DNA from: an uncultured Nitrospira sp.
Lineage (GTDB): Bacteria; Nitrospirota; Nitrospiria; Nitrospirales; Nitrospiraceae
NCBI GenBank assembly: GCA_902500995.1
Contig: CABVSR010000020.1
Span: 1-64,000, forward strand
DNA: 64,000 bases
Reading direction: 5' to 3'
Numbering within the stretch: the stretch's first letter is position 1; every line of letters begins with the position of its first letter. The notes under the pieces are model-generated. The model saw nothing but the letters and a program-made list of their open reading frames with translations. It made no database searches and had not been told where the DNA came from. A program made the position numbers and the translations under genes. Below, piece by piece: positions 9,106 to 55,825 of the stretch.

Positions 9106-9141
9106 AACACCTTTCTCTTAGAATGGTCCGCAGCCAGATCT

Positions 9142-10155: not shown

Positions 10156-10171
10156 AGCGCAAACCGTTCGA

Positions 10172-11188: not shown

Positions 11189-11190
11189 TG

Positions 11191-25555: not shown

Positions 25556-26356
25556 TCACACTGCCGCCAGCACTTCGAACTCCAGCTCGCCGACTTCCAG
25601 GATTGAGACTTCACGGTCATCCACGAGAAAGGTCTTCTGCCCGACTCCCCCGACCAACCCCGCACCAAGATCCAGCCATTCGGTCATCCGACCAAGACGC
25701 ACCTTGTCATCAGCCTCTCGCTCCGACCCTGCGTACAGGACGGGAAGAAAGGCTTCACCCACGGGGCCATCTTCTATCTCAACCGTCGCCGGCGCCCAGA
25801 GCAAATCCCGCAGCTGCTTCGGCTGTGGAATGACCACTTTGTGAATGCGTTCGAAGGGTATCCAGAGATAGGCATCTCGCACAATCACCTCCAGGACACC
25901 CCTGAGGCGATCGTCGGAATCTCGGAAGGAAGCGAAGGGTTGCCCTTTCATTCGACCTCGGATTGCCGGCCCGGTGCGCTGAGCTCGTTCATACAGCGCC
26001 TTGGCCTCCATTGGATGCGCTCCGCGCAACTGATTATGAGCGTCTACGTAGAGCGCGACGTGCTCAGGAGGCTCAAACAGGAAACCCGGCTTGATACCCT
26101 CATTGAAGAATCTCCGCCGAGAACCTTCGGCACGGAGGATATTTTTGTAGACCTCCACACCGATACCGACCTTTTCGTTTTGATGGCCGATGACGTCAAG
26201 TTGGCGTTGCGCCCGCTCATAGTCACCGGTGAAGCAGAGGAGTTCAAACAGGAACGTCCGAAGTCTGGTGTCGGTCGGATGTCGCTTGATATCGTCGGTT
26301 AACTCGAAAATCGCTGCGGAGAGTTGATGCTGTTTGAGTAACTCGTTTGCTCCCAT
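25556..26356 (-). CDS. tagJ: T6SS accessory protein TagJ (ImpE family)
   Basis: A 266-residue ImpE-family protein. The N-terminal third is TPR-like (LKQHQLSAAIFELTDDIKRH), then WIPFERIHKVVIPQPKQLRDLLWAPA and LPVLYAGSEREADDKVRLGRMTEW, which are diagnostic. In the Pseudomonas HSI-I system TagJ binds TssB and interacts with ClpV, modulating sheath recycling. Its presence places this T6SS close to the HSI-I type. It is 141 bp after tagF. Confidence 0.9.
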   Translation of the reverse strand: MGANELLKQHQLSAAIFELTDDIKRHPTDTRLRTFLFELLCFTGDYERAQRQLDVIGHQNEKVGIGVEVYKNILRAEGSRRRFFNEGIKPGFLFEPPEHVALYVDAHNQLRGAHPMEAKALYERAQRTGPAIRGRMKGQPFASFRDSDDRLRGVLEVIVRDAYLWIPFERIHKVVIPQPKQLRDLLWAPATVEIEDGPVGEAFLPVLYAGSEREADDKVRLGRMTEWLDLGAGLVGGVGQKTFLVDDREVSILEVGELEFEVLAAV

Positions 26357-26497: not shown

Positions 26498-27454
26498 CTA
26501 GCATCCTTCGGCTCTAAGGATCGATACACGATGCAAGAACGCTTCCAATGTCACCTCTCCATCGTCGAGAATCGCGCGTCCCGCCTCCGTTAACCGTCCC
26601 TCCTCATCGTCATCGAAGCATCCAATTGGCTTCCCTTCCGGACAAACCAGGTACAGCAGTAGTTGAGGGAGCGGTTGTTCCAGAGAGACCAGTAACAACG
26701 GCTTCACTGTGGCATGCCATCGATTCCAGAAAAGGATTCCTGCCTCCGGTCGGTGGCCCGAGGCCCGAGATATCAGGTCCATCCAAAAGGGGAGATCATA
26801 GGCCTCCTCCTCACTCTCCATCAGCAGGGGGAATCGACCCTGCCAGCTGCGCCGGCGCGAAGAATCCGATCCTGATCGGGAATGAAGCAACGACCGAATC
26901 AGGTCGTATTTCTGGGTACTGTCGAACGCGCCTAATACATCAGACCAGTGGTCATGCATCCGGCGACGGAGCAATTCAGCATGATATCGTGTCTCGATGG
27001 AGGCCGTCTCAGGAACCCCCACCGGCGACAACGCGTGGAGTCGAAATTTCAGGCGGTTGAGGTCTGACTCGGCGCTGACATCCTTCAGGAACCGGTGACT
27101 CTGCTCAAAGAACTCCTTGAAATGCATTGGGGCGCCCCAAGGCATTTCATGAAACTCAGTCTTCTCCAAAAGTAAGTAGATCAAGAAAGGGAACTCTCGC
27201 CCCGCCTTGTCCTGACTCGGTTTCAGAAGGCCAACCATGAATCGATCCCGGTCACGAGGCAGGTATAAAAATGCCCACTGATCTCCTTGCATGAAATCCC
27301 TGGACCAGGAGGGCCCTAAAGTAGATTTTCCGTGGAACATCCCCTCACGAATCCATTGATCCAGCTCATCGATCTCCGCGCCTGACGCTTGGCATCGAAT
27401 AAATTCCGCGGACAGAGGAAGTTTTCCGTAGTAGCCGAAGGTAGCGCTGTACAT
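26498..27454 (-). CDS. tagF: T6SS post-translational regulator TagF (ImpM family)
   Basis: A 318-residue TagF. The N-terminal YYGKLPLSAEFIRCQASG, LDQWIREGM and the WSRDFMQGDQWAFLYLP block are signatures of the DUF2094/ImpM domain. The C-terminal half is more divergent and lacks a phosphatase domain, unlike TagF-PppA fusions. In Pseudomonas TagF restrains firing by sequestering the FHA protein, and is relieved by another pathway. It starts five bases after tssM. Confidence 0.9.
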   Translation of the reverse strand: MYSATFGYYGKLPLSAEFIRCQASGAEIDELDQWIREGMFHGKSTLGPSWSRDFMQGDQWAFLYLPRDRDRFMVGLLKPSQDKAGREFPFLIYLLLEKTEFHEMPWGAPMHFKEFFEQSHRFLKDVSAESDLNRLKFRLHALSPVGVPETASIETRYHAELLRRRMHDHWSDVLGAFDSTQKYDLIRSLLHSRSGSDSSRRRSWQGRFPLLMESEEEAYDLPFWMDLISRASGHRPEAGILFWNRWHATVKPLLLVSLEQPLPQLLLYLVCPEGKPIGCFDDDEEGRLTEAGRAILDDGEVTLEAFLHRVSILRAEGC

Positions 27455-27459
27455 TGAGC

Positions 27460-30400
27460 TTATGTCACATGCGGCACACAGGTGAATTGCTCGAAGAAAC
27501 CTGGGCGAAAGGGATTCTTGACACTCTTGGCCCTTACGTCATATCGAATTTGCAGCGGCTTGGAGTCGGGGGTAAGCAGCTCCCATTGGACCTTCACCTT
27601 GACATCGCTATGATCAGATGACTCAATCACACCAGCTCTGATGAGCTTGAACAGACCCCAGACATCCTTGAACTCTTTCGCAACCGAGCTGTTGCCGACT
27701 TGGACCAGCAGAGCGGCTCCAAGGGAAGGCATAGGGCCAGGCCATTTCATCTCCCACCACTCTTGTGGCTCCATCCGATACCGCAAACGCTGATCACCGA
27801 TATCCAGCCGTACCTCACTGACACTTCGACCTGCGAGTCCCTGCGGCGGATAGGGGTAGACTTCTATTGTCGCACCCAAATCCTGCGATCCTTTGGTGAA
27901 CAGACTGTCTGAAACAAACTTGGCTTTCTCTAACGACTCGAGAAAGGCGTCGGAAACGGTCAGCGCGATGCCGTTCGAGACTCTGCGCACTACACGGTCG
28001 CCCCTCTCCTCCAGAAAGGGTTTTAAGTCTGCCTGGTAGAAACGCCACAGCGCACCCTGTTCCGGGTGCAACAGATTGACGACGTCCTCCACCACGGCAT
28101 CCTCGCCGGATGATCGGAAGGGATACTTCCCTTCGATCGTGCGCTGGCAGGCTTGAAACACGTCGGTGCCCCAGCGTTGATCGATATCCAACCGTGTGCG
28201 CTCCAACACCCCGCGCATGGTCATCAACCAGGGTTCCGACAGCAGCGTCACCATGGATTCTCGTAATTCGGTATCCAGCTTCTGCAGCAAGGAATCTGTC
28301 TTGTCTATCCCCTGCTGAAGACCATTCGAACCTCCAGCCACAATGGTCCTCGCAAGGGTTTTCGTGTCCGGGCTGATGGTCTCCGAAAGCAGGACCGGTC
28401 GAATCATCTGATGCGCCTTCCGCAATTCCGTCAGGTATTGAATGAGGGGCGTCTCTTCCTTCGCCTCCTTCCGGGCAGCGATCAGATCATGCAATGCCAG
28501 AAAATGCACGGTCACTCCGCCAGGAAACTCAGCCGCGTCCGGGGCACGTTGTGGCTTCTCGAGCTTCTTGCCGACTGTTTCCAGTCCTAGCTTTTCCTTC
28601 ATCTTTCCCAGCAAGCCGACTGCAGACTCCTGAAGTTTCGCAATGCCTTCCGGCTCCGGCACGGTATTGCGATCGACGGCTTCCAGTATCCGCAAGAACG
28701 GCGAATCTGTCTGGCTCAAGGCCGAGAGCAATTCTTCCATGTTCGCCGGAGTGACGGCGGGACCGAGCGCCAGCGATTTCACAAACGCTCGCCAATGAAG
28801 CACATAGTCCTGGAAATACAGCCTCTTAATCCCCCGCTCCACGTCGACCTGTTTCGTGTCAGGCTCGCCCACGACCCAGGCTTCGCTCCCAAGCCTTTCG
28901 AGCACTCGGCCCATGGCAACCTGGAATGGTCCTTTCCACCCCTCGTAGGTGAACACACCGGGAATCGGGTGGTCGCTGATAATTGTGCCCTGCTGAGTTC
29001 CTTGCAGCGCCGTCTCGACTGAAAATGGCGCCGGTCGAAGAGATTCGTCGACTTCGCGAAGGCTGAGACCGTAGAGCCGGTCCACAATGGGTATCTCCCG
29101 CAAGCGCTCTTGAACGCTTGCCACGAGGCGTTTGTTTAATTCGACACGGCCTTGTGGCGCACGAGCCAATACCCCCGTGTAGAGAACCATGTGCCGTTGA
29201 ATGCTGTCCTGCACCCAGTCCGGAACCGCATAGGTCGCATACAGGCCCTTCAGCCGTTCGTTCCAGTGGGCGGTCAGCCATCGATCCAAGTAAGGGCTGT
29301 TCAGACGCTTGGGCTCACCAAGCATGATGTAGGCTTTGAGCATGGAATGGTAGTAATCACTCGCCGCGATTGCCTCCCTGCGCTCATCTCCCGAGGCAAA
29401 TTGATCGAGCTCCGTCTCCATGGCACGCTTGGTGGGAATGAGAAAGATTTTTTCAAACTGGTGCGCATAGACCTCCTGAAGGTCGTCGAGCAGGCGCTCT
29501 CCTCGATACAAGCCCCAGAGATGAAATGGCACCCCGTTCTCGCTATAGGAAACCAGGTCGCCGAACCGTTCGCCCAGCCTATCGAGATAGGCCAGATTCT
29601 TTTCGAGGCTCGCCGCGTCCGTGACGGCGAGGTCTGGAGCATTCAACGCCACCGAGAGGGTATTGCTGACCAGCGCCCGATTCCCGATATAAGAGAAGGC
29701 CAGTGCGACCACGGAAATTGCGACAAACAGCGTTCCCGCAGCAAAGGCGGCCACGCGCAGAACGCCCCGTTGTTTGTGGATAGCGGTCGAGGGACCCGCG
29801 AGAAACTGATCCGGAAAGATGACGTCGGTAAACAGATTCTTCAGGAAATAACTCTTGGTCTCGGCAGGCGAAAAAACCGAGGCGACCATATCACCCAGTC
29901 CGGACGCGCGACTGATGACGTCGAGGATACGATCGATGGGCGTCCCCTCCTGCGTCCCACTCGTCAAATAGAACCCGCGGAACATCGGATTTTCCTGATA
30001 CGGATTCGATTGAAACAACAGTTCGACAAAACGGGTCAGCTTGTCGGTCGCAGAAGCGAGCTGGAGGGGAAACGTCAAAATATTCAGCTTGTATGGTCCG
30101 CGGGCATTAACCAGGCGGGCGAGCCGGCGGGATTTGACGGCGGCGAGCAACTGCTCAAATTCGGTTTTGAAACGCACTTGCGCCGGTTCCTTGGCGGCGC
30201 TCTTGGGAAACGTGCATCCCCAGATCTTCTCCCGCTCCGCTTTGGTGAGTTCTTCGAAAAACTCAACGAAGCCTCTGACCAAATCGCATTTGGTGAAGAT
30301 AAGGTAGACGGGGAAGACAATCCCGAGATGCGTCATCAGTTCATCGATACGGCCGCGAATTTTCTTGGCATGAGCCTCCAGTTCTTCTTCACCGGCCTGC

Positions 30401-31092
30401 ATCAAATCGGCGATGCTGATGGCAACCAGAATACCGTTGAGTGGTTTCTCCTTCCGGCACTTCTTGAGCAGATCGAGAAAGCCCAGCCATTCCTTCTGAT
30501 CTTCCTCATGGGTGACATACCGGCCTGCCGTGTCGAGCAGCACCGCATCGTTCGTAAACCACCAATCGCAGTTCCTGGTTCCACCCATCCCCTGCAGCCC
30601 TTGCCCTGATTCGCCGAGATAGGGAAACTGCAACCCCGAATGCCGCAGGGCCGTGCTTTTCCCAGATGCGGGCGGGCCGATGAACATGTACCAAGGCAAC
30701 GCATAGAGGGCGGCTTTCCCCTTGACCCCTTTCCCGATCGCAGACTCTTTCAGAGCCGCGACACCCTTATCAAACTGGCGGCGCAACGCTTCCAGCTCTT
30801 CCTTATGATCAGGCCTGGCTGCCGCCACCTGTATTTGCGCCTGTTGTCGAAGCGATGCCTCCAATTGGGATGCACGGCGCTGCGAGACGAGATGGTGAGC
30901 GAGATAGAACACGAACCGCAGCAGGCCGATGATAATAATCACCTGAACCCGGCTTTCAACCGATTCAAGACCCACCTGAGGGCCCATCAACCACACCAGC
31001 CAGATGAGACAGACCACTCCGAACTCGACCACCAGCCGAGGATGCCCCAAGATGGCAACGAACAGCGATGCGATCTTCGCGAACAACCCCAT
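27460..31092 (-). CDS. tssM: T6SS inner-membrane channel protein TssM (IcmF)
   Basis: A 1210-residue IcmF protein. N-terminal membrane segments lie at about 24-38 and 50-66, with a third near 455-475. The cytoplasmic loop carries Walker A GPPASGKS (139-146), so this TssM probably binds nucleotide, and NCDWWFTNDAVLLDTAGRY (Walker B region). The large periplasmic part ends in the usual beta-rich C-terminal domain that binds TssJ. It overlaps tssL by one base (TAATG). Confidence 0.96.
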   Translation of the reverse strand: MGLFAKIASLFVAILGHPRLVVEFGVVCLIWLVWLMGPQVGLESVESRVQVIIIIGLLRFVFYLAHHLVSQRRASQLEASLRQQAQIQVAAARPDHKEELEALRRQFDKGVAALKESAIGKGVKGKAALYALPWYMFIGPPASGKSTALRHSGLQFPYLGESGQGLQGMGGTRNCDWWFTNDAVLLDTAGRYVTHEEDQKEWLGFLDLLKKCRKEKPLNGILVAISIADLMQAGEEELEAHAKKIRGRIDELMTHLGIVFPVYLIFTKCDLVRGFVEFFEELTKAEREKIWGCTFPKSAAKEPAQVRFKTEFEQLLAAVKSRRLARLVNARGPYKLNILTFPLQLASATDKLTRFVELLFQSNPYQENPMFRGFYLTSGTQEGTPIDRILDVISRASGLGDMVASVFSPAETKSYFLKNLFTDVIFPDQFLAGPSTAIHKQRGVLRVAAFAAGTLFVAISVVALAFSYIGNRALVSNTLSVALNAPDLAVTDAASLEKNLAYLDRLGERFGDLVSYSENGVPFHLWGLYRGERLLDDLQEVYAHQFEKIFLIPTKRAMETELDQFASGDERREAIAASDYYHSMLKAYIMLGEPKRLNSPYLDRWLTAHWNERLKGLYATYAVPDWVQDSIQRHMVLYTGVLARAPQGRVELNKRLVASVQERLREIPIVDRLYGLSLREVDESLRPAPFSVETALQGTQQGTIISDHPIPGVFTYEGWKGPFQVAMGRVLERLGSEAWVVGEPDTKQVDVERGIKRLYFQDYVLHWRAFVKSLALGPAVTPANMEELLSALSQTDSPFLRILEAVDRNTVPEPEGIAKLQESAVGLLGKMKEKLGLETVGKKLEKPQRAPDAAEFPGGVTVHFLALHDLIAARKEAKEETPLIQYLTELRKAHQMIRPVLLSETISPDTKTLARTIVAGGSNGLQQGIDKTDSLLQKLDTELRESMVTLLSEPWLMTMRGVLERTRLDIDQRWGTDVFQACQRTIEGKYPFRSSGEDAVVEDVVNLLHPEQGALWRFYQADLKPFLEERGDRVVRRVSNGIALTVSDAFLESLEKAKFVSDSLFTKGSQDLGATIEVYPYPPQGLAGRSVSEVRLDIGDQRLRYRMEPQEWWEMKWPGPMPSLGAALLVQVGNSSVAKEFKDVWGLFKLIRAGVIESSDHSDVKVKVQWELLTPDSKPLQIRYDVRAKSVKNPFRPGFFEQFTCVPHVT

Positions 31093-31790
31093 TATCCCCT
31101 CGCCTCCTGGAGGAGCCGTCTCAATTCATGGCCGACATAAGCGGAGTCTTGTCCGATCAAAATGGATAGGCCGAGATAAAAGAGCAGGACCAGTGAGGTG
31201 CTGACTGCAATAATGACCCACACGGGAAGCTCGCGCTTGACCATCTCCAGCAACTCTTCCGGACGCCGCCCGCGCGGCGACAGCGGTGGAATCTCCCCGC
31301 GCTTTCCCTGAATCTGGCGTGTCAGATCCTCCACCAAGCCACGTAACCGTTCCCGATTTTCCAGCTTGTATTGCCCCTCGAATCCGAGCAGGAGGCAGTA
31401 TGTATAGAGCTCCAGCAGGTCGACATCCAGCGGAACGCCGCCGCGAATATGATCCAGTCGCCTAAAGAACCCTTCGCCGGCCGTAAATTCCCCGAACAAT
31501 TCGTATTGCAGCGGCCGAGCGGCCCATTCATCCTTTTGGGGCCAGCGCGAGTTGATGAGCATCTCGTCAAGAAAGGCGGCCACAGCGTAACGAGCCTGTG
31601 TCAAGGCGTCCTGGGGCAAGCCGGAGATCCGGCCTCTTTCCTCAGCCGATTGAAATAACTGGTGCAGCCGTGCCCGCAGGCTCTCGACCCCTCCTGGATT
31701 GGCGGCGTCGCGAAGTTGCACCCCAAGCACCAAGAGGTCGTTGAACACTTCGCTCAGAGAACTCGTCTTCTCGGACTGGGCGATGACCAT
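31092..31790 (-). CDS. tssL: T6SS inner-membrane protein TssL (DotU)
   Basis: A 232-residue DotU-type protein. The cytoplasmic hook has QARYAVAAFLDEMLINSRWP and LELYTYCLLLGFEGQYKL, the classic motifs; one C-terminal membrane segment spans about 192-213. There is no fused peptidoglycan-binding domain, so anchoring to the cell wall must come from another protein, possibly one of the OmpA-like proteins in the window. Confidence 0.95.
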   Translation of the reverse strand: MVIAQSEKTSSLSEVFNDLLVLGVQLRDAANPGGVESLRARLHQLFQSAEERGRISGLPQDALTQARYAVAAFLDEMLINSRWPQKDEWAARPLQYELFGEFTAGEGFFRRLDHIRGGVPLDVDLLELYTYCLLLGFEGQYKLENRERLRGLVEDLTRQIQGKRGEIPPLSPRGRRPEELLEMVKRELPVWVIIAVSTSLVLLFYLGLSILIGQDSAYVGHELRRLLQEARG

Positions 31791-31796
31791 GGCTGG

Positions 31797-33137
31797 TTAC
31801 TCCTTCGTAGCCAGAAGCTGTAACCGAAGAGACTGGAGACTTTGGGGAACATGCAGGGCAATGATTTGCGTGCGCTTGATGTCCTCCCAAAACACCCCTC
31901 GATCATCGAGACGAAAGTACTGCTGGCCGACCCGCACCGGCAAGGTCGCTGGAGGGCGTGGGGTATGGTACAGCCGGACTCCTGGCATTGCCGCTGCCAC
32001 TATCTCCTTGAGCTTGGCGGGTGAGCCGATCCGGATAAATTGCGGCACCTGCTGCCGGATCTGGTCTTCGCTGAGATCGCCGGCTGCGACCAAGAAAAAC
32101 TGAGAGGACGCGAAGAGGCGGCTCTCCGGGACCCGCGCCACCCATACATTATCCCCGCTTGCCTCCAGCGCGATGGTCAGATAATGCGTGGGCTGGAACC
32201 GTTCGACGATGGAACGAATGGTATGGTCCAAGTCTTCGAAGGTCGCCGCAAGGTTGTCGTGTCGATAGGGCGCCAACGTCCACACTTCCGCCGGACCGGC
32301 CAACATCGCGAGTGCCCCTGCCAAACGGGCAAGGATCAGGTAGAGATCTTCCGGATGTACTTTTTCGACGAGATCCGCATGTTGCATGGCCGGCAGATTG
32401 GCCATGAGCGCGGAGAGCAGATGATACTTCCCTAAATCCATTCCAATCGCTTCTAAAATGCCCCGCTGGGCATTGCCGTACGAACCGATTTGAGCCGTGA
32501 GGAGTTCAATCAGCCCGCGATGAAGCCGCATGAGGTAGGAAGAAGCGGAGATCCACAAACATGGAGGAATATAGGTTTCCTTCAATGCGATGGCGCCAGC
32601 CTGGGTCCTGAGCAACTCGCCGATCTTCAAGACCACCATGTCGCTCGTAGGCTCGCCCGAAAATAAGAGACGGAGATTCTTCCGTGCGACCAGGATCTCC
32701 TGAGGATTCCCGCCTGTCGTGGAGTCCTTCCGTTCGATGTAGGCGGAGGAATAGCGGGCGGCTCGGGTGCCGGACTCATCGCCCAATGCGCAGTTCACTC
32801 CGTCTGGCTGCTCCACCGGCAGAGCCAGAAACACATCGAGGTGGTCCAGCGAGGGCGGGAACAGATCACCGATCAACCGCGTTTGCGGAGCCATGTCTTC
32901 TTCCGGAATCCTGACGACCACGCCATCCGGCAACAGGCCCTGAAAACCAAGCAAGGTCACGCGGCCGTTGGAAAGCCCGTCATGATCAAAATCCAACCTC
33001 AAGGCGCCGTAGCCGAACGCCACCAGCGCACGGAACCGTTCATTGAGATGACGCTCGTAATATTGATCCCACTGTTGAAATAACTGCGGAGTGAGGAGCA
33101 TCCCCTCGCTCCAGACGACTTTTTGGTTATTCTCCAT
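31797..33137 (-). CDS. tssK: T6SS baseplate-membrane connector TssK
   Basis: A 446-residue TssK, the trimeric adaptor joining baseplate wedges to the TssL/TssM complex. The opening VVWSEGMLLTPQLFQQWDQY and MRLHRGLIELLTAQIG are characteristic, as are FPPSLDHLDVFLALP and the C-terminal LPVRVGQQYFRLD. It begins 20 bp after tssJ and ends six bases before tssL, in the usual J-K-L-M order. Confidence 0.95.
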   Translation of the reverse strand: MENNQKVVWSEGMLLTPQLFQQWDQYYERHLNERFRALVAFGYGALRLDFDHDGLSNGRVTLLGFQGLLPDGVVVRIPEEDMAPQTRLIGDLFPPSLDHLDVFLALPVEQPDGVNCALGDESGTRAARYSSAYIERKDSTTGGNPQEILVARKNLRLLFSGEPTSDMVVLKIGELLRTQAGAIALKETYIPPCLWISASSYLMRLHRGLIELLTAQIGSYGNAQRGILEAIGMDLGKYHLLSALMANLPAMQHADLVEKVHPEDLYLILARLAGALAMLAGPAEVWTLAPYRHDNLAATFEDLDHTIRSIVERFQPTHYLTIALEASGDNVWVARVPESRLFASSQFFLVAAGDLSEDQIRQQVPQFIRIGSPAKLKEIVAAAMPGVRLYHTPRPPATLPVRVGQQYFRLDDRGVFWEDIKRTQIIALHVPQSLQSLRLQLLATKE

Positions 33138-33157: not shown

Positions 33158-33652
33158 TTATTCGTCCTTCAATTTGAGCCTGTGTTCATCCAGCATCAAT
33201 TTGACGGTCGGAGTTTTAAAGGGGATCCAGGTGGACTGGTCCGACGACACGACTCGCCGCCATTGCTCTCCTTCCGGCCTACGAAAGAGTGCCATGACAC
33301 CCAGGAACTGGACCCCCTTTTTCTGATCCACCTGCAATTCTATGGAGGCCTTCGTTTCAGGATAGACGGTCACCTCTCTCCGTTCGAGCATATCCCCTTC
33401 CAACACCTTCTCGTCATTCCTCCACAGCGCCCGAAAATCGGCTCGATCGAACCGCTCCCTGTTCCTCAATTGATACACGCGCACGACAACGGACAAGGGC
33501 GCGCCGGACTCATCGGGATTCAGCCTATAGGTCGGGAGGAGCGTGACGCGGACATCCTTGATGCCGCTCCCGCACCCGACAGTGATCCCTCCCATCATGA
33601 GGATGATCAGGAATAAAGAAAGATTATCGACCACGTTGAGTCTTCTGGACAT
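33158..33652 (-). CDS. tssJ: T6SS outer-membrane lipoprotein TssJ
   Basis: A 164-residue lipoprotein that anchors the membrane complex to the outer membrane by binding the TssM C-terminus. I use the ATG at 33652, overlapping the FHA gene by 29 bp, because it gives a compact signal peptide ending in ITVGCGSG with the lipidated Cys at 27. The transthyretin-like fold follows: LNPDESGAPLSVVVRVYQLR, LRRR-like basic stretches and GVQFLGVMALFRRPEGEQW. Confidence 0.92.
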   Translation of the reverse strand: MSRRLNVVDNLSLFLIILMMGGITVGCGSGIKDVRVTLLPTYRLNPDESGAPLSVVVRVYQLRNRERFDRADFRALWRNDEKVLEGDMLERREVTVYPETKASIELQVDQKKGVQFLGVMALFRRPEGEQWRRVVSSDQSTWIPFKTPTVKLMLDEHRLKLKDE

Positions 33653-34877
33653 CCAAATACCCCTTCGCGAAATGTGGCGCCAGTATTTGTTCAAAGATCC
33701 TGACTTCCTCCTCCGTAAATCGTCGATGTTTGTGCTTGAAGTGTTTCCAGGCTCCCCATCGTTTCAGAAGACGGAAGGAAGCCGGAAGCCGCAGCGGCCC
33801 GAGTTGAACAGGACTGGCATCCATCTCGGCTTCGATTGTCGCCGGATCGAACTCCCTCAAAACGGCGCGAAGACTTTCTTCGAATCCTTTAATCACACCG
33901 ATCTGATGGAGGGCCAAATCGCGAAACACTCGTTGAAGGTCTGCCATGACGACTTCTGTATCCTGGGGATTCGAAAGCTGGTCAAGAAGATAGGCCCCGA
34001 CCTGGCGCTCATTCTCCGCCTGTTTGATCTGATTCGGCGCCCAGTTGAGAATGCGCGTCGCCTCGACGTCTAACTCACGAGCGAACTGCCGTCGGCCTTG
34101 CAATGACTCGACCAGATTGCCGAAAGTAATGTCGAGGATCTTATCGATCCGGCGGATCAATTGGCCGACGAATTCAGCGGTCGCCGGCGAGGGAAGCCTT
34201 TGGTAGTATTTCTGCGCAATGGCGAGTAGACCTCTATAGGCAGCTTCCTCGGCAGCCTGATTCGCGCATACCGATTGTGGCGGAGCCGACTCCGGAGGAT
34301 GAGCGGGCGTCGGCAGACCGAGTCGGAGCGATAGACCGTCGCGGACTTTTGCCATCAGAGATTGAGCGCCTCCTGCACCTTGCCGTGTCAAAGCCGGGCG
34401 GAGCATGTCCATCAATGCCGCTTCACGCTCCTGACTCGTACATCCCTGCAATTCGGCATAGCGGCGGCAGAGCTCGTATATCAACCCATCCGGGTCGCTG
34501 CTCTGCACCGCAGTCTGCTGCTCCTCCACCACACTATGCGCCGTGCCGTTGGGCTGCGGGGCCTGGACTGAAAACAGAATGGTGAAATCACCGATCAGAA
34601 TGCGGTCGCCTTCCCGCAGAGGATATTCACGTTGGGGCACCAGCGACTGATCGTTCATCCTAGTGCCATTGGTGCTCCCTACATCAACCAGCACGCAGGC
34701 GTCCGCTTTGCGGCGAATCGCCGCGTGACGAGAAGAGATGACCCGTTGAGGATCCTGCAACGTCACATCGTTCGAAGAAGCCCGTCCGATCGTCACCTCA
34801 CTCTGATCAAAGACATGCTTCCGCACCTGGCCGCCATCAAGAATCTCGCGAGGGTGAATTTCCAATCGAATAGCCAT
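33624..34877 (-). CDS. tagH: T6SS-associated FHA-domain protein (TagH/Fha)
   Basis: A 417-residue scaffold. The N-terminal FHA domain has GRASSND (31-37), SSRH (48-51) and STNGT (68-72), all the phosphothreonine-binding positions. A Pro-rich linker leads to the C-terminal T6SS-specific domain (about 240-417) with LRLPASFRLLKRWGAWKHFK and FFEQ-like helices. In Pseudomonas the homologue is phosphorylated by PpkA to license assembly and held off by TagF. It is eight bases downstream of the kinase-like gene. Confidence 0.92.
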   Translation of the reverse strand: MAIRLEIHPREILDGGQVRKHVFDQSEVTIGRASSNDVTLQDPQRVISSRHAAIRRKADACVLVDVGSTNGTRMNDQSLVPQREYPLREGDRILIGDFTILFSVQAPQPNGTAHSVVEEQQTAVQSSDPDGLIYELCRRYAELQGCTSQEREAALMDMLRPALTRQGAGGAQSLMAKVRDGLSLRLGLPTPAHPPESAPPQSVCANQAAEEAAYRGLLAIAQKYYQRLPSPATAEFVGQLIRRIDKILDITFGNLVESLQGRRQFARELDVEATRILNWAPNQIKQAENERQVGAYLLDQLSNPQDTEVVMADLQRVFRDLALHQIGVIKGFEESLRAVLREFDPATIEAEMDASPVQLGPLRLPASFRLLKRWGAWKHFKHKHRRFTEEEVRIFEQILAPHFAKGYLDVQKTQRGR

Positions 34878-34885
34878 CGACCCAA

Positions 34886-36196
34886 TTACATACGCTCGGC
34901 CGACACGAGATCGCAGATTCGCAGAAGCTCGCGATGCCGAGCAGCGGCTTCAAACAAATCTATTCTCGCCTGCTCGGCCAAGTGTTCTGCACCTTGCACT
35001 GCACCAGTTAACGCTCCCGGTACAGCCGCCGTGTCTCTCGCCCCGGTATTGCTACAAAAGCCAAAACCCGGGATGCGTGACGTCAGCCGTAATCCATAGA
35101 TCAACGCGTCGTACCAAGCAAACTCAGACAGGCAGTCGGAGGATGGAGCAAAGATGTCTCGTTGTTCTTTTAATCTTCCGCTGACCCGCGTGAAGCGAGT
35201 CCAGTGATCGTCCGGCTCCAGGCCCTGAACGAGTGGCTCCAATCTATCAAGTACCGCGCTCAGTTCCCGCTGCACGACCTCGAAAGGACGAGATGGATTC
35301 ACAAGGAGGCATCCAAAGAGCAACATCCCTAAACTATAGAGGTCGCACGCATGATTAAATGCACGAAAGACCTCTGTCTGGGCTTCGGACAACACTTGTT
35401 GTTTGGCCCTCTCCAATTGCGACCATACGGCCTGTGGGATTGCATCCGTCACGCCGCTGACGACGAGCCCTCTTTCCGCCGCCTCGACCTTTCTTGCCCA
35501 CAGAGAAATCAACGTGGTTCCATTTCCCGGTAACCGCAGGGATAAGTGAAATACATCGTGTTCGGAAAAGTCAGCGAATGACACCGCATTGGAAAACACA
35601 TGGGCTCGTATAAGCCCGCGTGAGGCTTGTTCATCCCCGTCATCCGGGATACGCTCCACCGCACGAAGCAGAACCGTAACCGAGAGTTCACGCCCCATCG
35701 GCCATTGCTTTATGGCGGGCGCAGTGTAGGTGGGATCAATATCTCCAGAGGGGACAAAGATTTCCTGAGCCATTTCCTTTCGCATCGTTTCATGGACCAA
35801 TGGGGTTGCCCCGTTCGCCTCATCTAGATTCACCGCGAATAACCATCGAGCCGGTAGCCACGCAAATGTAGGGTCGCTAGGATGCGCCCTGATATGTTCG
35901 GGGGCTAGAGACAAATGAGGACGTTGATGTTGCCGATAAAATTCAGCTGTAGCACGACATAGGCAGGCAAACCCACTGAGTTTTAACCACAAACATTCAA
36001 GTGGAAGCCGGACAGGATCATCCTGAAAGAGAAACTGCCGACCTACGGAGAATCTGGCTCGAAATGGAGGGAACGATTGGACCAGCTCAGGAACAGTTGA
36101 CCAATCGGCTCCACCTAGCAGGTCACAGGCTGTGTCCCATCGAAGAGATGGAGCCGCAGCTCCAAATGACGGAATGTGTGGCCCATGATTAGACAT
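34886..36196 (-). CDS. Kinase-like protein, probably a pseudokinase, T6SS-associated
   Basis: A 436-residue protein in the slot where T6SS loci often carry a Ser/Thr kinase. PHLSLAPEHI (93-102) aligns with the kinase catalytic loop HRDLKPENI but lacks its Asp and Lys; CDLYSLGMLLFGCLL (284-298) matches the alpha-F helix. No glycine loop, VAIK lysine or DFG is recognisable, and about 180 residues separate the two remnants. I infer a regulatory pseudokinase. The ATG at 36196 is used; 36229 is possible. A TTGACA lies at 36331-36326 upstream but without a good -10 box. Confidence 0.55.
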   Translation of the reverse strand: MSNHGPHIPSFGAAAPSLRWDTACDLLGGADWSTVPELVQSFPPFRARFSVGRQFLFQDDPVRLPLECLWLKLSGFACLCRATAEFYRQHQRPHLSLAPEHIRAHPSDPTFAWLPARWLFAVNLDEANGATPLVHETMRKEMAQEIFVPSGDIDPTYTAPAIKQWPMGRELSVTVLLRAVERIPDDGDEQASRGLIRAHVFSNAVSFADFSEHDVFHLSLRLPGNGTTLISLWARKVEAAERGLVVSGVTDAIPQAVWSQLERAKQQVLSEAQTEVFRAFNHACDLYSLGMLLFGCLLVNPSRPFEVVQRELSAVLDRLEPLVQGLEPDDHWTRFTRVSGRLKEQRDIFAPSSDCLSEFAWYDALIYGLRLTSRIPGFGFCSNTGARDTAAVPGALTGAVQGAEHLAEQARIDLFEAAARHRELLRICDLVSAERM

Positions 36197-36367
36197 AGGG
36201 CAGTCACCGTACAGGACAAACGCCCACACTATTGATGCAGATGACTGGGTGGGTCTGTGGCGAATCGGAAGGTAGCTCTTTCAACGAAAGAAATCAAGCA
36301 CATAGATGTCGAAATGGAAGTATTATGTCAACGCCCCTGCCTGCCTTTAGAACCTAGCCGACTCTAA

Positions 36368-39300
36368 CTAACTACCGGAAAGTTGGTAGGGAGAGCCTCC
36401 ACCATCTCCCACCAGCATAAAGGAGGCCCACGCATGGGGATGGGCAAAGTACCTCTTTTCAGGATGCCTAACAGCGATCTCGAAGAGTGCCAGCATTCCC
36501 TCCCGCAGAGCTTTTGCGGGCGGAATGGATTCAACATCACTGTAGCGCTGAAATATCTGCTCCATTAGAGACCTGGTCGCTTCATCATCTACACTCCACT
36601 GACTAACCAATAGTGCCTTGGCTCCCGCAAAGAAAAAAGCTCGAGATAACCCTGACAAGCTTTCCCCACTTCCGTCTGCTCCCGCAGTGTTACATGCCGA
36701 CAAAATGACCCACTCAGTCGAGTGCAACTTGAGATCAAAAATGTCGTCCATAGATAAAAGCCCATCGTTTTCCTCTGTAGGAATATCTGGTGGTGTGAGG
36801 ACAAGAGCCGGCTGTGTGACTCCCTGCAATTCCCCGGCTAATAATCCATGGGTTGCGAACGAGAGAACCTTTGTGCTTCCTAGACGACCCGTAGAGTTAA
36901 GTCGACGCACCTCTGGCTCGGTTGCACGACGATTGATGAATACATTGGTTTCCGGATCAACACCGAGAAGCCGGGCCACAGCCAATAACTCGTCACGAGT
37001 CCCTGGTAAATTATCGAGCCTGCGTAATGTATCTCCTGCCACGCGCATACCGCGCGCGGGCACCATTTTTCCTCCTCGTTCATGCCCAGATCCTTGCAAG
37101 AGTGGATCACCGAAGCCAATGAAAGATTCTTTGGGAGTCTCAATAGTAGCTGCATTTTGACGCAGCATTTTCAATGCGGAAATGGACGGAAGAACTGTTG
37201 AGGTATACGACTTCACGAACCAAGGAAGACCCGCATAGTCAACTAAGTCATTCAGCGATGGGACTCTGCCCTGCTGAAATATTTGAGCAAAGCGACTAAA
37301 TTGTTTACTCCTCCGATCCGTTAGAAGAGCAGCAAACGGAAGAGGGAAAAGCACCTCATCCGGGGCTAAAAACAGCTGCGAAACATTTGCAAGATGTTGC
37401 TCTAAAGAATTAAAAAGAATCTGATAAAGATCTGCTGCGGCCTCGACATCATAGGCAACCGACACAGGGCTCTCACTATTAGTTCTTTGTTGAGGAACGA
37501 TGCTCGACCGAACCTTTTCAACTAAACTCACAAGCTTGGCGCGCGGCACCAGCGTTTCACGATAGGCCACAGGCTTGCCCGAGCGAAGCAACCACATTTG
37601 AACACGATCCCCAAGCGTATAAAACGATATCAGCGCCTCATCAGGTCGAAGCATGGGTAAGACAGCACTAATATCTAGCGGTCGAGGCTGTGCTAGTTCA
37701 GCATAACGTGGCGCTTGGGTTCGCAATTCCGCACCAGCCTGATCGAGGGAATACTGCAACTGGGACAGGTCCTGCTTAAGTTTGTCCAATTCACCCGCGG
37801 AACGATCCCTTTCAGGAACACCATAGACTTCATTCAGACGCGTCCATAGTTCCAGACGCTTGCGGCGAAGCTCTTCGAATCGCATCGCGACTCCGAGCGT
37901 TTTTTCACTCACCCCTTGGCGCTGAGCGATACTCTGAGCCACCGCTGCTTGCACCAACCAGCCTCGCGCTTCTTGCGCCACCACAAAGGCGTCCGATACA
38001 GCCGACTGTTGCTCAGCTGGTTGCTTTGTATCACGTGTGAGCGCGGCTAACATGTGAGCATAATCCTGCAAGCCTTTGAGATCGCTCTTCCAGATTTTGC
38101 TCATGGCTTCATCATCGAGTCCCGCATTCTCCGCACTTTGTGCCTGCAGAATTTGACGGGCGCGTTCATAGAGAGGTCGAGAAGCGACTAGGTGGCCCTG
38201 CGCGTGCTTTGCGCGTGCCAAGTCAAAGAGGCTCCGAGCTACATCCTTGTGGCCAGGCCCAAGCGCTGTCTCCCTAATTTGGACGGCGCGGCTAAAAAAC
38301 GACTCTGCTGAGGAGAATTTATTGGACTGGCCCTCGAGGTATCCTAGGATGGTTAAGGTCTGTGCCACAGCCGGATGATCGCGCCCCAGCGATCGTTCCT
38401 GGATCTGAAGCGCGCGCTGCAGTAATGCCCTAGCTCCACTGAGATCTCCGTCCTGACGCCTCGCTTCTGCCAACTCTATGAGGGTTGAAGCAACAAACGG
38501 ATGGTTCTGGTCCACGGCAGCATTCTGGATCTCCAGCGCTCGTTCGAACCTTTTTCGCGAGCTTTTCCCGTTTCCTAGGGCACGTTCAGCAAGACCGATC
38601 TCATAGAGATTACCGGCTATTTCTGGGTTATCCTCGCCATAGCTTCGTTCATTAATTGCAAGTGCCCTCATGAGCAATGACAAGGCGCCATCATAATTTC
38701 CAACCTTGCTTTCTAGCATCGCCAATTGGGTTAGCGCGGCTGCTACATACGGATGCTCCCGGCCCTTGGTCTCTTCGTAAAGCGACAACGATTCCAAGAG
38801 TAACGAGCGCGCTTGTTCGAATTTTCCTTGACGGCCCAAGATATTGCCCAGAACGTTAACGGCCATGGCAAGATCAGCGGGCCGAGGCGGATTAGCCCCC
38901 CGCAAGATTGTAACCGCCCTGTCTGCGGTAGAACGTGCCTGGACAAGCTGGCTCATTCCACGTTGAGCGATAGCGAGATGAGCCAGAGTCATCCCTAAAT
39001 CTGGATGAGAGGTGCCAAGTGTGCGCTCTTGAGTCCGGACACTTTGTTCCAACAACTGCATAGAATGCCCAAATTTTCCTCCTGCATACAACATCGCGGC
39101 CAGGTGTGTCAGACTTTCGCCCACTCGTGGATCGTCTCCTCCAAAAGCAGAGCGTCGAATAGCGAGGGCTCTTTCAAGAAGTGGTCTCGCTTCATTCAGT
39201 TTGACGAGAGCTGAGTGTACTAACCCTAATGTTGTTAGTGCCTCTGCCACACGTTCGTCTTTTGATCCCAGAGCACCTTCACGAAGAGTCAGCGACTCGC

Positions 39301-39571
39301 GAGCTGGTGCAACAGCCTGCCTGTAGTGACCTTGTTCATAAAGAGCTTGCGCCTGTTCATGGGCGGCCTGAGCTTTCTGCAAGAGGACTATTTGGTCGGC
39401 ATCCGTCAAGGGAACGGAGGGCTCTCGGGGTGCAGAAACTATTGAACATGCACCACATAGGGAAGCTATTACCAGAAGGGCAATCGAAAGATGCCTATCT
39501 ATCCTGTGGGACACAGGTTGTACCCAACACCACTCATAACAGCAAACAAGGTTAGCAAACTTTAACGTCAT
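36368..39571 (-). CDS. TPR-CHAT protein, probable lipoprotein
   Basis: A 1067-residue envelope protein. Hydrophobic residues 28-42 followed by a Cys near 42 suggest a lipoprotein signal, though the lipobox (CGAC) is imperfect. Residues about 65-480 are a long array of 42-residue kinesin-light-chain-type TPRs, each with phrases like RALEIQERSLGRDHPAVA. The C-terminal CHAT caspase-like domain (about 740-1067) has H908 in SFATHGLLAG and C960 in LSACNTAGAD, so it should be an active protease. It follows the TPR/barrel gene by 14 bp. GGGAG precedes the ATG. Confidence 0.88.
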   Translation of the reverse strand: MTLKFANLVCCYEWCWVQPVSHRIDRHLSIALLVIASLCGACSIVSAPREPSVPLTDADQIVLLQKAQAAHEQAQALYEQGHYRQAVAPARESLTLREGALGSKDERVAEALTTLGLVHSALVKLNEARPLLERALAIRRSAFGGDDPRVGESLTHLAAMLYAGGKFGHSMQLLEQSVRTQERTLGTSHPDLGMTLAHLAIAQRGMSQLVQARSTADRAVTILRGANPPRPADLAMAVNVLGNILGRQGKFEQARSLLLESLSLYEETKGREHPYVAAALTQLAMLESKVGNYDGALSLLMRALAINERSYGEDNPEIAGNLYEIGLAERALGNGKSSRKRFERALEIQNAAVDQNHPFVASTLIELAEARRQDGDLSGARALLQRALQIQERSLGRDHPAVAQTLTILGYLEGQSNKFSSAESFFSRAVQIRETALGPGHKDVARSLFDLARAKHAQGHLVASRPLYERARQILQAQSAENAGLDDEAMSKIWKSDLKGLQDYAHMLAALTRDTKQPAEQQSAVSDAFVVAQEARGWLVQAAVAQSIAQRQGVSEKTLGVAMRFEELRRKRLELWTRLNEVYGVPERDRSAGELDKLKQDLSQLQYSLDQAGAELRTQAPRYAELAQPRPLDISAVLPMLRPDEALISFYTLGDRVQMWLLRSGKPVAYRETLVPRAKLVSLVEKVRSSIVPQQRTNSESPVSVAYDVEAAADLYQILFNSLEQHLANVSQLFLAPDEVLFPLPFAALLTDRRSKQFSRFAQIFQQGRVPSLNDLVDYAGLPWFVKSYTSTVLPSISALKMLRQNAATIETPKESFIGFGDPLLQGSGHERGGKMVPARGMRVAGDTLRRLDNLPGTRDELLAVARLLGVDPETNVFINRRATEPEVRRLNSTGRLGSTKVLSFATHGLLAGELQGVTQPALVLTPPDIPTEENDGLLSMDDIFDLKLHSTEWVILSACNTAGADGSGESLSGLSRAFFFAGAKALLVSQWSVDDEATRSLMEQIFQRYSDVESIPPAKALREGMLALFEIAVRHPEKRYFAHPHAWASFMLVGDGGGSPYQLSGS

Positions 39572-41419: not shown

Positions 41420-44122
41420 ATGTTGACGCAACGACCTTCGGGCCTCTTAGCAGTCATGGTAGTGGCCACGCAGATTCTAGGGCCCTCCGTCCTGTGGGCC
41501 GCTGAGCTCGAGCGTGGCGCGCGTGTGGAGGCGGCTCAGCACGTTGTGGTGACAGGGGCAGCCGGCGGCGAGCTGCAGGCGCAAGGGCCGAATGCGGGGG
41601 AGAGTCCTCGCACGCTCCGCTTCCGTGATCGCGTGGCCTCGGGAGAGCGATTGTCGATCGGCCCCGACACGATCGCCGAAGTATTAGTCGGCCACCAGGC
41701 GCTCGTGACAGCGCAGGGGCCTTCCACATTTCGCATTACCCAACCGACCGATGGGCACCCTGTCATCTCCCTGGAGAAAGGAGAGTTGCTCGTTGCGGTG
41801 GCCTCGAGCGCCTCTGGCGACGAGCGCGACGTGACCCTCGAAACCCCCACGGCCCGACTCGTCACGGACGGGGGCTTGATCCGGGCCAGTACGGAAGGCG
41901 GATTCAAGCAGACGATGCCGCCACTGAGTCCGAGGCAGCTGCAGGTCGTGCTGGCGTCCTATACCATGACAGCCGAGCCACTCCTCGCCGCCGCACCCTC
42001 GACGACCGAATTCTTTCAAATCGTGGAAGGCCGCGGGACGGTCACGGCCGCGCAGGCAACAGACACCGCGGTCGCGTTGGAATCCGGCCAGGGCGTACAC
42101 ATCACAAACGGCGCCCTCGACACCCCGTTCGTGCCCCCCGCTTCAACCAACCGCGTGCCATCGGCTGCGGCGGTGGCGCAACATGCCAACACGCCGGCCC
42201 TCGGCGCGCAGCATCTGGCCGAACTGCAGATGCAACAGGCCGTGGCGCTGCAACAGGTGCTCTTAGGAGCCTCCGAGTCGACGAGTGATGAAGTACAGGG
42301 ACAGAATGCCTCGCGCAACGCAATCATCAGTACCTTGAATGCCAACCTGGGCAGCGGCACCAGTAGCAGCACCGATGCCTTGTTAGCGTCCCTGTTTGGC
42401 AGCGGCAATCCCTATGCGCAGGGTGCGCAAAATCCGCAGGATCGAGGAGGGGCGGCCTATGGTGGTGCTAATAATCAAGGATTTGAAACAACTCAAGGAG
42501 ATGCTCGTGTTTCTATAAGTGGAGGAAATGGCCTTCTTGTCTTTACTAAGAAAGATCCATTGACAGCTGTGTGGGTTGGACCACCGAACGAAAATTGCCT
42601 GGAGTTCTGCTCGCTCGCAGTTTTAAAGGATCCAAGTAGAGTTGCGTTAAAGTCACAGCCTTCAATTTCAAGCAATTTTACTGCCACTAAGGAGCTTCTA
42701 CTTGTCGGGGGAACTCCTAATGTGCGGCATGGCGGTGCCGCACCGACGGAAACATTGGTGGTCCGTGGAGCATCACCGGCTAGCGGCGCGACTGTTTTTT
42801 CAAACGTCGCTGCCACTCCGGTGCCCAAATCGGTTATTAGAGTTCCTCCTTTCACAGTTCCGCCTCGAGATGGCTTATTCATTGAGTCGGGCCCCTTTGG
42901 TCCGTTCGCAAACGATGCGGTCAATTTTGATGATTTCAGACCCCTCAAAAAGCCGTTGATCGCGCAAAATAGCACATTTGTAGTGGAAACGGCTTCTGTT
43001 GGAACCGTTAACGGAATTGAAGGAGGAACCCTATCGCAGTACTCCAACAGGGCCGACAGTCTTGTTCTCGCACACGAAACTCAAGAATTTTTTGATAGAA
43101 GCTTTGTGGACGGGGCCATCACGGCCACTGGCCCGAGTGTGGTGCTAAAAGGCGGCGTGACCTTGGATCATGGCACGGCCGTGACGATGGGGACGACGGC
43201 CGCCACCAACAACTACTTTGCCAACGCCGCCGCCCTCAACCCTGCCGATGCCAAATTCAGTGGCTCGCTGATCTCTGTCCTGACCGGCCCCAATGGACCC
43301 GTCTCGCTCACGATCAACGATCGCGCGCTCGCAGTGTTTGACGGCAGTTCGATCACCGGCGGAGGCGGCAACAAGGCCCTCTTGAGCGTGCTGGATAGCC
43401 GACTGATCGGCCCCGGCTCCGTCCCGTTGATCGATGTGGATGCCGCGGGAGGCGCACCGCCTTCGATACAAAATGTCACTTCCGCCTTCGTGGTTCGCTC
43501 GACCGTGCCGGTGGCCTCCCTCGATCAAGCCTTGCTCGTGGCCACGGCGCCCCTGCTCGCCCTGACCAATGGCACCATGACCACGACCAGCCATTTTGCC
43601 GATTTGGCCGGGAACAAGAATCAAGCGTTAAATCTGCAGGCGAATGCGTTAGTCGGACTCAACGCCGCGAGTTTGGCCATTCAGAGTGGGCACCTGCTCA
43701 ATCTCAATGCGGCCAGTGCGACGATCAGCGGCTACCTGTTCTCGTTGGCCAACGGCAGCACGTTGAGTATCAATAATGGCCTCCTCTTTAGTCTGACCAA
43801 TGGCTCCAATCTGAATCTCAATGCCAATGCGTTTGGGGTCTTCGGGGCCGGCACAAACATGCTGAATGTCACGAATGGCTTATGTGGCGCTGGGGCCGCC
43901 TGCGGGCAATTGGTCAACAGCGCGAATGCCCCCTTCAACGGGCCAAACGGCCCCATCAGGGTGGCAGGAACCAGCCAAAATCTTGTCCTACCCAATAACT
44001 TCAATGTTTTTGCCGCTCAGAACCCGGCCCTTCAGAAGGTGAACATTGGTGCAACGGACGCGCTCTTTAAAGTCGATACCACCTCAACCTTAACTATCAA
44101 TGGCACCCCGGTGAAAAAGTAG
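41420..44122 (+). CDS. Large secreted FecR-domain protein with repetitive C-terminus
   Basis: A 900-residue protein with a signal peptide (about 1-27) and an AAGGAG site before the ATG. Residues about 65-160 are a FecR-like beta domain (LRFRDRVASGERLSIG, ISLEKGELLVAV). A Gln/Ala-rich helix (about 260-290) and Gly/Ser linker follow. Residues about 600-890 are Asn/Leu/Gly-rich beta-helix-like repeats such as LNLQANALVGLNAASLAI and SINNGLLFSLTNGSNLNL. The part encoded by about 42470-43110 (residues 350-563) is clearly AT-richer than both flanks, suggesting replacement by recombination. Surface or periplasmic structural role inferred. Confidence 0.75.
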   Translation: MLTQRPSGLLAVMVVATQILGPSVLWAAELERGARVEAAQHVVVTGAAGGELQAQGPNAGESPRTLRFRDRVASGERLSIGPDTIAEVLVGHQALVTAQGPSTFRITQPTDGHPVISLEKGELLVAVASSASGDERDVTLETPTARLVTDGGLIRASTEGGFKQTMPPLSPRQLQVVLASYTMTAEPLLAAAPSTTEFFQIVEGRGTVTAAQATDTAVALESGQGVHITNGALDTPFVPPASTNRVPSAAAVAQHANTPALGAQHLAELQMQQAVALQQVLLGASESTSDEVQGQNASRNAIISTLNANLGSGTSSSTDALLASLFGSGNPYAQGAQNPQDRGGAAYGGANNQGFETTQGDARVSISGGNGLLVFTKKDPLTAVWVGPPNENCLEFCSLAVLKDPSRVALKSQPSISSNFTATKELLLVGGTPNVRHGGAAPTETLVVRGASPASGATVFSNVAATPVPKSVIRVPPFTVPPRDGLFIESGPFGPFANDAVNFDDFRPLKKPLIAQNSTFVVETASVGTVNGIEGGTLSQYSNRADSLVLAHETQEFFDRSFVDGAITATGPSVVLKGGVTLDHGTAVTMGTTAATNNYFANAAALNPADAKFSGSLISVLTGPNGPVSLTINDRALAVFDGSSITGGGGNKALLSVLDSRLIGPGSVPLIDVDAAGGAPPSIQNVTSAFVVRSTVPVASLDQALLVATAPLLALTNGTMTTTSHFADLAGNKNQALNLQANALVGLNAASLAIQSGHLLNLNAASATISGYLFSLANGSTLSINNGLLFSLTNGSNLNLNANAFGVFGAGTNMLNVTNGLCGAGAACGQLVNSANAPFNGPNGPIRVAGTSQNLVLPNNFNVFAAQNPALQKVNIGATDALFKVDTTSTLTINGTPVKK

Positions 44123-44124
44123 CT

Positions 44125-44595
44125 ATGCGAAAACCTTTGTGGCTTTGGCTTCTAGCAGGTATCGCGCTTCCGGTGGCAGTCGCGTTGGGGATAGACGCTC
44201 CGGCTGATCCGGTTATGGCACATCTGGAATATCTAGGATACCGCTGTGATTCCGTTGAACAGGGCATTAGGGCCCAGCACAGTTCGAAACTTCCTTTCGT
44301 CGTAACTTCCGAACGTGGGGGAATTTTGCTCCAGACAGGCTTTCCGGGGAAAGGTGACACCGTTGACACGTCTAGACGTTTCTCGGTGCTCAATATCGTG
44401 AACACCCGGATGCAAGTCGCGCGCGGATTCTGGACTGAAGAGGGAGACCTGTTTGTCAAAGCTTGGATGCCCGGACTGTATGACAAGCTACGCTTTGCGG
44501 CTTATATACAAGCCTGGGAAGATGATCTAAAAATCTTGCGAGAAGCTGGGCCAGCGCTGAGTGGATTTCTCCTAGAGAACTCCACTCAGCGCTAG
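44125..44595 (+). CDS. Small exported protein, YbjN-like, unknown function
   Basis: A 156-residue protein starting two bases after the FecR-type gene, so almost certainly co-translated. Residues 1-22 are a signal peptide. The remainder is alpha/beta with phrases such as LPFVVTSERGGILLQTGF, RRFSVLNIVNTRMQVARGFW and EEGDLFVKAWMPG, which recall the YbjN/type III chaperone-like fold, though I cannot confirm it. It may act as a periplasmic partner or chaperone for the large upstream protein. Confidence 0.6.
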   Translation: MRKPLWLWLLAGIALPVAVALGIDAPADPVMAHLEYLGYRCDSVEQGIRAQHSSKLPFVVTSERGGILLQTGFPGKGDTVDTSRRFSVLNIVNTRMQVARGFWTEEGDLFVKAWMPGLYDKLRFAAYIQAWEDDLKILREAGPALSGFLLENSTQR

Positions 44596-44600: not shown

Positions 44601-45020
44601 TCAGTCGTGAGGGTGAAATTGGCCGAGCACAGCATGATGGAGCTCATGCCCACACACCTCGAAGTTCCATTTAGGGCAATAGAGCGTATTCGTCGCGAAG
44701 TTAAAGAACCCTCTGACCGTTTTTACCACGGGAACGCTGCTGTTCATTTGAGACGTGAATCGAATCGCCTGACGTTGAGCCACTTGTTCCCACTGGTCAC
44801 TGAGACTGTCTTCGTCCAGAAAAACTACAGTCAAGCTCTTGACCTCGTGTTTTTCCTCATAGCGGGTGGCGATAGACGAGCACCCGAAACTGAAAATGCA
44901 TAAGATAATGGCTATCAACCCGGCAACGATGGTTTGAAGACGAAGAATCGAAACAATCCCTGACTGGCCTTCCTGCAAAGACATTTTCATTACCAAAAAC
45001 CAGGCTTCCCTAACTAACAT
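44601..45020 (-). CDS. Small lipoprotein with HELHH motif
   Basis: A 139-residue lipoprotein: hydrophobic residues 29-46 end in FSFGCSS with Cys47 as the lipidation site. The C-terminus reads VCGHELHHAVLGQFHPHD; HELHH (125-129) fits the HExxH zinc-protease motif, with additional histidines at 135 and 138. The domain is very short for a peptidase, so it may only bind metal. The ATG at 45020 has AAGGG upstream; an ATG at 44990 is an alternative. It converges on the FecR/YbjN pair with five bases between. Confidence 0.6.
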   Translation of the reverse strand: MLVREAWFLVMKMSLQEGQSGIVSILRLQTIVAGLIAIILCIFSFGCSSIATRYEEKHEVKSLTVVFLDEDSLSDQWEQVAQRQAIRFTSQMNSSVPVVKTVRGFFNFATNTLYCPKWNFEVCGHELHHAVLGQFHPHD

Positions 45021-46924: not shown

Positions 46925-47194
46925 GTAGTGTAGCCTGGGTAATGCACTTCACCTGCCCCTCTAACTCAATCGGAATGACTCTCGCATTTGCACCCCCTTG
47001 ATTGAAAGTCGAATGGCTTCGATGCTGGAACTTACGAAAACGATGCTCTTCTTTATTGGGAACAACGCTCACTAGAGGCTCGTTGAGAAACTGAGTCGGG
47101 TGCAGTAGCTTATGTACGCTAATCCTGATAGCAGGCGAGTTCTCCATACCGTCACTAATAGAATGCCGTTCTGAAAACGTTGCTCTTCACCTTG

Positions 47195-55816: not shown

Positions 55817-55825
55817 GACAACGTC

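Follow-up and report, generated by a model that had tools for sequence, protein, structure and literature searches.

PsK, a putative catalytically dead, kinase-like protein encoded directly before fha in T6SS loci of Nitrospirota

Threonine phosphorylation in the T6SS was worked out in Pseudomonadota, where one kinase, PpkA, writes the mark and also recruits parts. Another system to be considered here is that of MviN, a membrane protein of cell-wall synthesis. According to the sections of a 2025 review on bacterial pseudokinases used here, MviN of Mycobacterium has a dead kinase domain and works with an FHA protein, FhaA, and a separate active kinase, while in the T7SSb a catalytically dead kinase domain, that of EssB/YukC, serves the secretion machine (PMC12599244). 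The same sections list seven bacterial pseudokinase families (ActPs1-3, GLW, CP1, DLHK and DYD), of which all or many members are without catalytic residues, and ActPs2 carries a long insert in its activation loop (PMC12599244). In the main text of this review, as available to us, the terms T6SS, PpkA and Nitrospir- each occur zero times, and the titles and abstract openings that we searched, mostly from outside the subscription journals, describe no T6SS pseudokinase. For the T6SS itself, excerpts of the respective papers state that the localisation of PpkA in A. citrulli is independent of its catalytic activity (PMC12607579) and that TagF binds Fha independently of phosphorylation in A. tumefaciens and P. 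aeruginosa (PMC5995506), and they provide a precedent for Fha and phospho-TssL (PMC3953482).

The locus described here lies in a 64,000-nt stretch of DNA from an uncultured Nitrospira species (the window; contig C20 of the genome that we number G000). The ORF at 34886-36196 on the minus strand reads open from an ATG, with a GTG at 36229 as a possible alternative start, and encodes a protein of 436 aa, for which we coined the name PsK. It has no Pfam or NCBIfam family at E<=1, and its closest named relative, with 90% identity, is found in Ca. Nitrospira defluvii. The gene for Fha/TagH (33624-34877, minus strand) begins 8 bp after the PsK frame and encodes an FHA domain and T6SS_FHA_C (Pfam, 8e-18 and 3.9e-16; TIGR03354 above its cut-off). 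The genes downstream on the same strand encode the lipoprotein TssJ (33158-33694; Pfam T6SS-SciN, 1.9e-30), TssK (31797-33137), TssL (31092-31790), TssM (27460-31092) and TagF (26498-27454), the last four assigned by Pfam and NCBIfam, followed by ImpE/TagJ (25556-26356; Pfam ImpE, 2e-44) and TssA. On the plus strand, a T6SS-linked PP2C, a candidate PppA (47180-47992; Pfam), adjoins a nucleotidyl cyclase with an FHA domain (48068-49045; Pfam Guanylate_cyc, 5e-08, and FHA, 1e-07), whose role in the T6SS is putative. Thus FHA, TagF and PP2C, which the first-pass annotation had described as retained beside a pseudokinase, are present in the window according to Pfam and NCBIfam, and the FHA and PP2C motifs are intact by eye.

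The same region encodes two TPR-CHAT proteins (36368-39571, minus strand, and 50336-52885, plus strand) and a two-partner secretion pair (53963-58696). Further, a 900-aa protein (41420-44122, plus strand) and two small proteins (44125-44595, plus strand, and 44601-45020, minus strand) are encoded there. None of these three has a Pfam match, they diverge fast among relatives, and they are possibly T6SS cargo and its partners.

A search of 100 genomes, among them that of the window, gave a PsK match at E<=0.001 in 6. In a sample of the phylum, 12 of 395 genomes had a match at E<=0.01; one of them (G068; 38 residues, E 0.0055) was left out, and the remaining 11 genomes span six genera, four families and at least two classes. 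Within Nitrospira PsK is present in 6 of 29 genomes; in the genus g6 it occurs in G242, G282 and G420 (3 of 39 genomes), and also in G273. TssK is encoded in 33 of the 395 genomes and T6SS_FHA_C exceeds its cut-off in 12, with a weak match in G138. Both are present in all 11 PsK genomes, so that, of the 12 sampled genomes whose T6SS Fha is clear, 11 carry PsK, and no genome outside these 12 does (Fisher p 6e-8 for PsK and FHA_C within the 33 T6SS genomes, relatedness being ignored). The order PsK-fha-tssJ-tssK-tssL-tssM-tagF was found in the window, in four close relatives and at eight distant loci, with G028 seen as a contig fragment and tssJ of locus L048 dropped by the ORF filter. PsK is thus a conserved Nitrospirota family sited directly before the fha-tssJ-tssK-tssL-tssM-tagF genes. 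Viral contigs gave 25 pattern matches to PsK, of which none was confirmed, plasmids searched for relatives gave none, and a scan of genome contigs with the single PsK protein returned close Nitrospira matches only.

The one genome with a clear Fha in which PsK was missing, G260, has a PP2C (L194:12623-13534, minus strand) directly before fha. In G138, a protein of 661 aa (L196:8958-10943, plus strand) shares residues 23-129 with PsK (28 bits), and the short Fha-like protein of this genome is without an FHA domain match. These two cases suggest that the slot before fha is filled by a phosphorylation-pathway gene of varying form. The 661-aa protein terminates in three T-[VI]-I-L stretches, which we take to resemble FHA-binding phosphothreonine sites.

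The first-pass annotation saw remnants of a kinase catalytic loop and of helix alpha-F in PsK, and called for a profile-profile comparison. We aligned PsK with 13 relatives (31-90% identity to the window protein) and compared the family with 17 Nitrospirota kinases. The alpha-F remnant was borne out: the stretch D-L-Y-S-L-G (residues 285-290; 35327-35344) lies in a region with an hhalign score of 43.4-43.8, which was reached by none of 100 column shuffles, while 17 other families of the window scored 13.0-25.5 against the same kinases. With Asp285 and Gly290 invariant in all 14 sequences, this helix with its DxxSLG Asp appears to be a real kinase remnant, beyond what chance would produce. The catalytic loop fared less well. 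A helix-E-like stretch followed by a catalytic-loop-like H-L-S-L-A-P-E-H-I (residues 66-102; 35891-36001) stands in the expected order and register; the comparison of this region (residues 60-169), however, scored 16.0, a value equalled or exceeded by 8 of 100 shuffles, and a catalytic-loop remnant is weakly supported. Between the two lie the L-P-A-R-W at the presumed DFG site (residues 114-118; 35843-35857) and an APE-like Y-x-A-P (residues 157-160; 35717-35728; Tyr157 in 13 and Pro160 in 14 of 14 sequences, tentatively assigned). Pro99 is also invariant. Before alpha-F, residues 163-262 (35411-35710) are predicted to form an inserted five-stranded beta domain (AF2 mean pLDDT 72.5, pTM 0.62).

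Could PsK be a T6SS accessory with a fold of its own, in which a DLYSLG-like helix arose by convergence? Such a protein could still link Fha to the membrane complex, and several observations speak for this reading. Kinase models gave no match to the 14 family members at E<=10, PF00069 (Pkinase) did not reach its cut-off, and PDB sequence searches with the intact proteins or their profile returned no kinase. By our reading of the alignment, the N-terminal part seems too short for a usual N-lobe; no register to an N-lobe was obtained for it, and neither a VAIK motif with the beta-3 Lys nor a Gly-rich loop motif was seen in it. Finally, the distant relative in G138 shares nothing beyond the N-terminal stretch mentioned above. 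Against this stand the alpha-F scores and the result of scanning 680 ORFs with a kinase HMM, in which the 16 top rows were kinases and PsK orthologs made up 11 of the 14 ORFs behind them (E 0.06-2), although the alignments inspected covered about 18-46 residues, helix F and its surroundings only. Moreover, after removal of residues 170-276, Pkinase was the sole Pfam match (one of seven members, E 0.26), and without the insert a kinase ranked third in the PDB search, near the expected place (E 1.6). On balance we regard an independent fold as possible but doubtful. We hold a kinase ancestry, resting mainly on helix alpha-F, to be rather probable and no firmer than that, because the profile signal is mainly that of alpha-F, the loop falls within the shuffle range and AF2 confidence is low for the full-length protein (mean pLDDT 35.7 with the window protein and three relatives). 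Kinase or PilZ rows missing from the fold-search lists were not counted as evidence.

The inserted domain raises a different possibility, namely that PsK is a sensor whose PilZ-like barrel binds a ligand and thereby switches Fha docking. Modelled by itself, the insert folds, and in VIA-align the PilZ domains of BcsA lead (Z 8.3, rmsd 2.6, 85 aligned residues); PilZ domains (BcsA, YcgR, MrkH, MotI, Alg44 and one other) make up 14 of the top 23 rows. The first unrelated row, VgrG1, however, follows at Z 6.8, the program cautions that top Z scores of 7 to 8 are often seen, and the best Foldseek match had an E of 0.17, none being found at E<=0.001. At the profile level the insert behaved like shuffled sequence against PilZ (10, 12 and 24 of 60 shuffles as high; BcsA against YcgR gave 34.2), with one of the ten PilZ rows used running through a stop codon close to its end. 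The PilZ motifs for c-di-GMP are RxxxR and (D/N)xSxxG. In PsK, the R178xxxR182 is found in 8 of 14 sequences and the counterpart of DxSxxG is without its D and G. We therefore consider a sensor role distinctly unlikely, and describe the modelled insert as PilZ-like in shape only, not as a PilZ domain.

As to catalysis, the claim that the Lys, Asp and DFG residues are missing was largely right. In the kinase register, which we chose from the alignment and hhalign, the position of the HRD Asp is S, N, V, A, Y or M in all 14 sequences, the loop Lys is K in none of them, and P-[AMT]-[RY] replaces DFG. These data are best explained by a catalytically dead protein with kinase-like features in the Fha operon. 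One could imagine that PsK retains the kinase fold for another chemistry, as in SelO and SidJ, and pseudokinases with such activity exist according to the review sections cited above (PMC12599244). But the pattern for nucleotide binding is not conserved in PsK, which has neither HRD Asp nor DFG nor a recognisable Gly-rich loop, and we find this very unlikely.

The loss of catalytic residues beside a kinase-like helix could also be expected of a decaying PpkA remnant. This was rejected and has next to no chance of being correct: the frames are intact in six genera of four families (the match in G131 contains a TAA, yet its ORF of 452 aa starts just past it), 25 columns are invariant in the 14 sequences, and dN/dS is 0.15-0.20, near the 0.13-0.18 of Fha. 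By these measures on the coding sequences, the PsK gene is intact and conserved and evolves under purifying selection. When the window (34886-36300) was compared with N. defluvii (L004), the PsK gene was 83-95% identical in 150-bp steps, the DNA upstream of it about 40% and fha 57-81%, and dS was 0.265 for PsK and 1.54 for fha. Identity so far above the flanks and the low dS suggest that the PsK gene was exchanged as a unit.

Where, then, is the active kinase? It had been suggested that an unlinked kinase serves the pathway, and the proposed search of the genome was rewarding: the window's genome encodes three full kinases. Two of them, on contig C21 about 5-11 kb from the contig's end, flank a gene for an FHA-transglycosylase; in both, a kinase domain at the N-terminus is followed by a hydrophobic span and a further C-terminal part, and their VAIK, HRD and DFG motifs are intact by eye. 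The protein between them (L061:13707-15188, minus strand) combines an FHA domain with a lytic transglycosylase (SLT), a hydrophobic span lying in between, and a protein with Sel1 repeats and a caspase-like (Peptidase_C14) domain (L061:17097-19085, minus strand) adjoins the kinases. The N. defluvii island encodes, among its kinase genes, a protein of 523 aa (L094:3907-5478, minus strand) that has both VipA-like and VipB-like T6SS sheath domains. The third kinase, on contig C14, is adjoined by a PP2C and an FHA gene.

The extra kinases occur together with PsK. Three kinase matches over 150 bits were found in five Nitrospira genomes (G000, G005, G014, G022 and G024). In the sixth PsK-bearing one (G028, 66% complete), a single match reaches this score and three others are partial; the 23 of 29 Nitrospira genomes without PsK have one full-scoring kinase each. 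Similarly, orthologs of the window PP2C with 72-74% identity are confined to the six PsK genomes among the 29, all of which have one (the window's own at 100%), the best in the other 23 reaching 44% among the matches listed. In genus g6, a kinase lies next to an FHA-SLT gene in all four PsK genomes; in G282 this pair adjoins homologs of the window genes at 6824-12300. Second kinases are also found in some other g6 genomes, and it was the extra kinase found before PsK that singled out G420. Full-length FHA-SLT was detected in 8 of 390 genomes, all eight with PsK, and is absent from 3 of the 11 PsK genomes (G355, G131 and G162, the last being 70% complete and without any kinase match). Thus the intact membrane kinases, the FHA-transglycosylase and the PP2C are inherited with PsK. 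For the first-pass annotation this means that "in place of PpkA" holds for the position of PsK alone, as two intact membrane kinases belong to the same island. The kinases do lie apart from the PsK locus; in G005, G014 and G024, however, PsK and the pair share the T6SS contig at distances of about 40, 39 and 53 kb, so that the pair is not truly unlinked.

Relatives of the C14 kinase are found in 25 of 30 other genomes (76-88% identity within the genus, 46% in two outgroups), besides G004 with 59% and a wrong row for G028. A tree of this housekeeping kinase (28 rows including two outgroups; G009, G007 and G001 not recovered, G004 divergent) places the PsK genomes at scattered positions in the genus, and its starred branches force at least four changes, one of which may be due to the G028 row, a wrong paralog that we disregarded. 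On account of this scatter we rejected the idea that the genus inherited the whole package once, and the island seems to have been moved or lost several times as a unit. Since kinases and PP2C share the island with PsK, their joint inheritance may be hitchhiking, and linkage alone could explain the pattern.

In comparison to the described systems, PsK resembles PpkA of Pseudomonas, Agrobacterium and Acidovorax in being an Fha partner by gene order, encoded beside fha in the T6SS cluster, in its kinase-like helix and in its clustering with TagF and PP2C. It differs from PpkA in having neither the catalytic residues of an active kinase domain nor a membrane span (its maximum 19-residue hydropathy is 1.42, whereas the island kinases reach 2.68 and 2.24) and thus no periplasmic part; with kinase domain, span and C-terminal part, the island kinases are nearer to PpkA than PsK is. 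By its description, MviN-FhaA may be the nearest precedent; unlike MviN, PsK is predicted to be soluble, belongs to a T6SS operon and carries an inserted barrel. EssB/YukC is a Bacillota membrane protein of another machine, compared by sequence through the PDB searches, which returned no kinase, and the seven pseudokinase families of the review were compared by their descriptions.

Based on these observations, we propose that PsK is a soluble, non-catalytic, kinase-derived Fha partner in the control of T6SS threonine phosphorylation, a proposal to which we assign an even chance. The two island kinases would take the catalytic part of PpkA and mark Fha, PsK or TssL, and the PP2C would reverse the signal. 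PsK might tether Fha at the membrane complex of TssJ, TssL and TssM, possibly by serving as a phosphorylated scaffold comparable to MviN with FhaA, and TagF could repress via Fha, apart from phosphorylation, as described for A. tumefaciens and P. aeruginosa (PMC5995506). In a more elaborate and as a whole unlikely version, a kinase C-lobe without catalysis or the usual N-lobe, split by the barrel before helix F, would read a ligand and gate Fha docking, with the separate membrane kinases writing the threonine mark.

PsK defines a T6SS gene family that is conserved yet matched by no Pfam or NCBIfam model. In the nitrite oxidiser Nitrospira marina, T6SS-related proteins were reported, in the text excerpt used here, to be more abundant under low oxygen (PMC8115632). 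If the proposed role of PsK holds up, Nitrospirota would have divided the two jobs of PpkA, with a catalytically dead kinase-like protein as adaptor and other proteins as kinases, and which of the functions of PpkA need catalysis could be put to a direct test.
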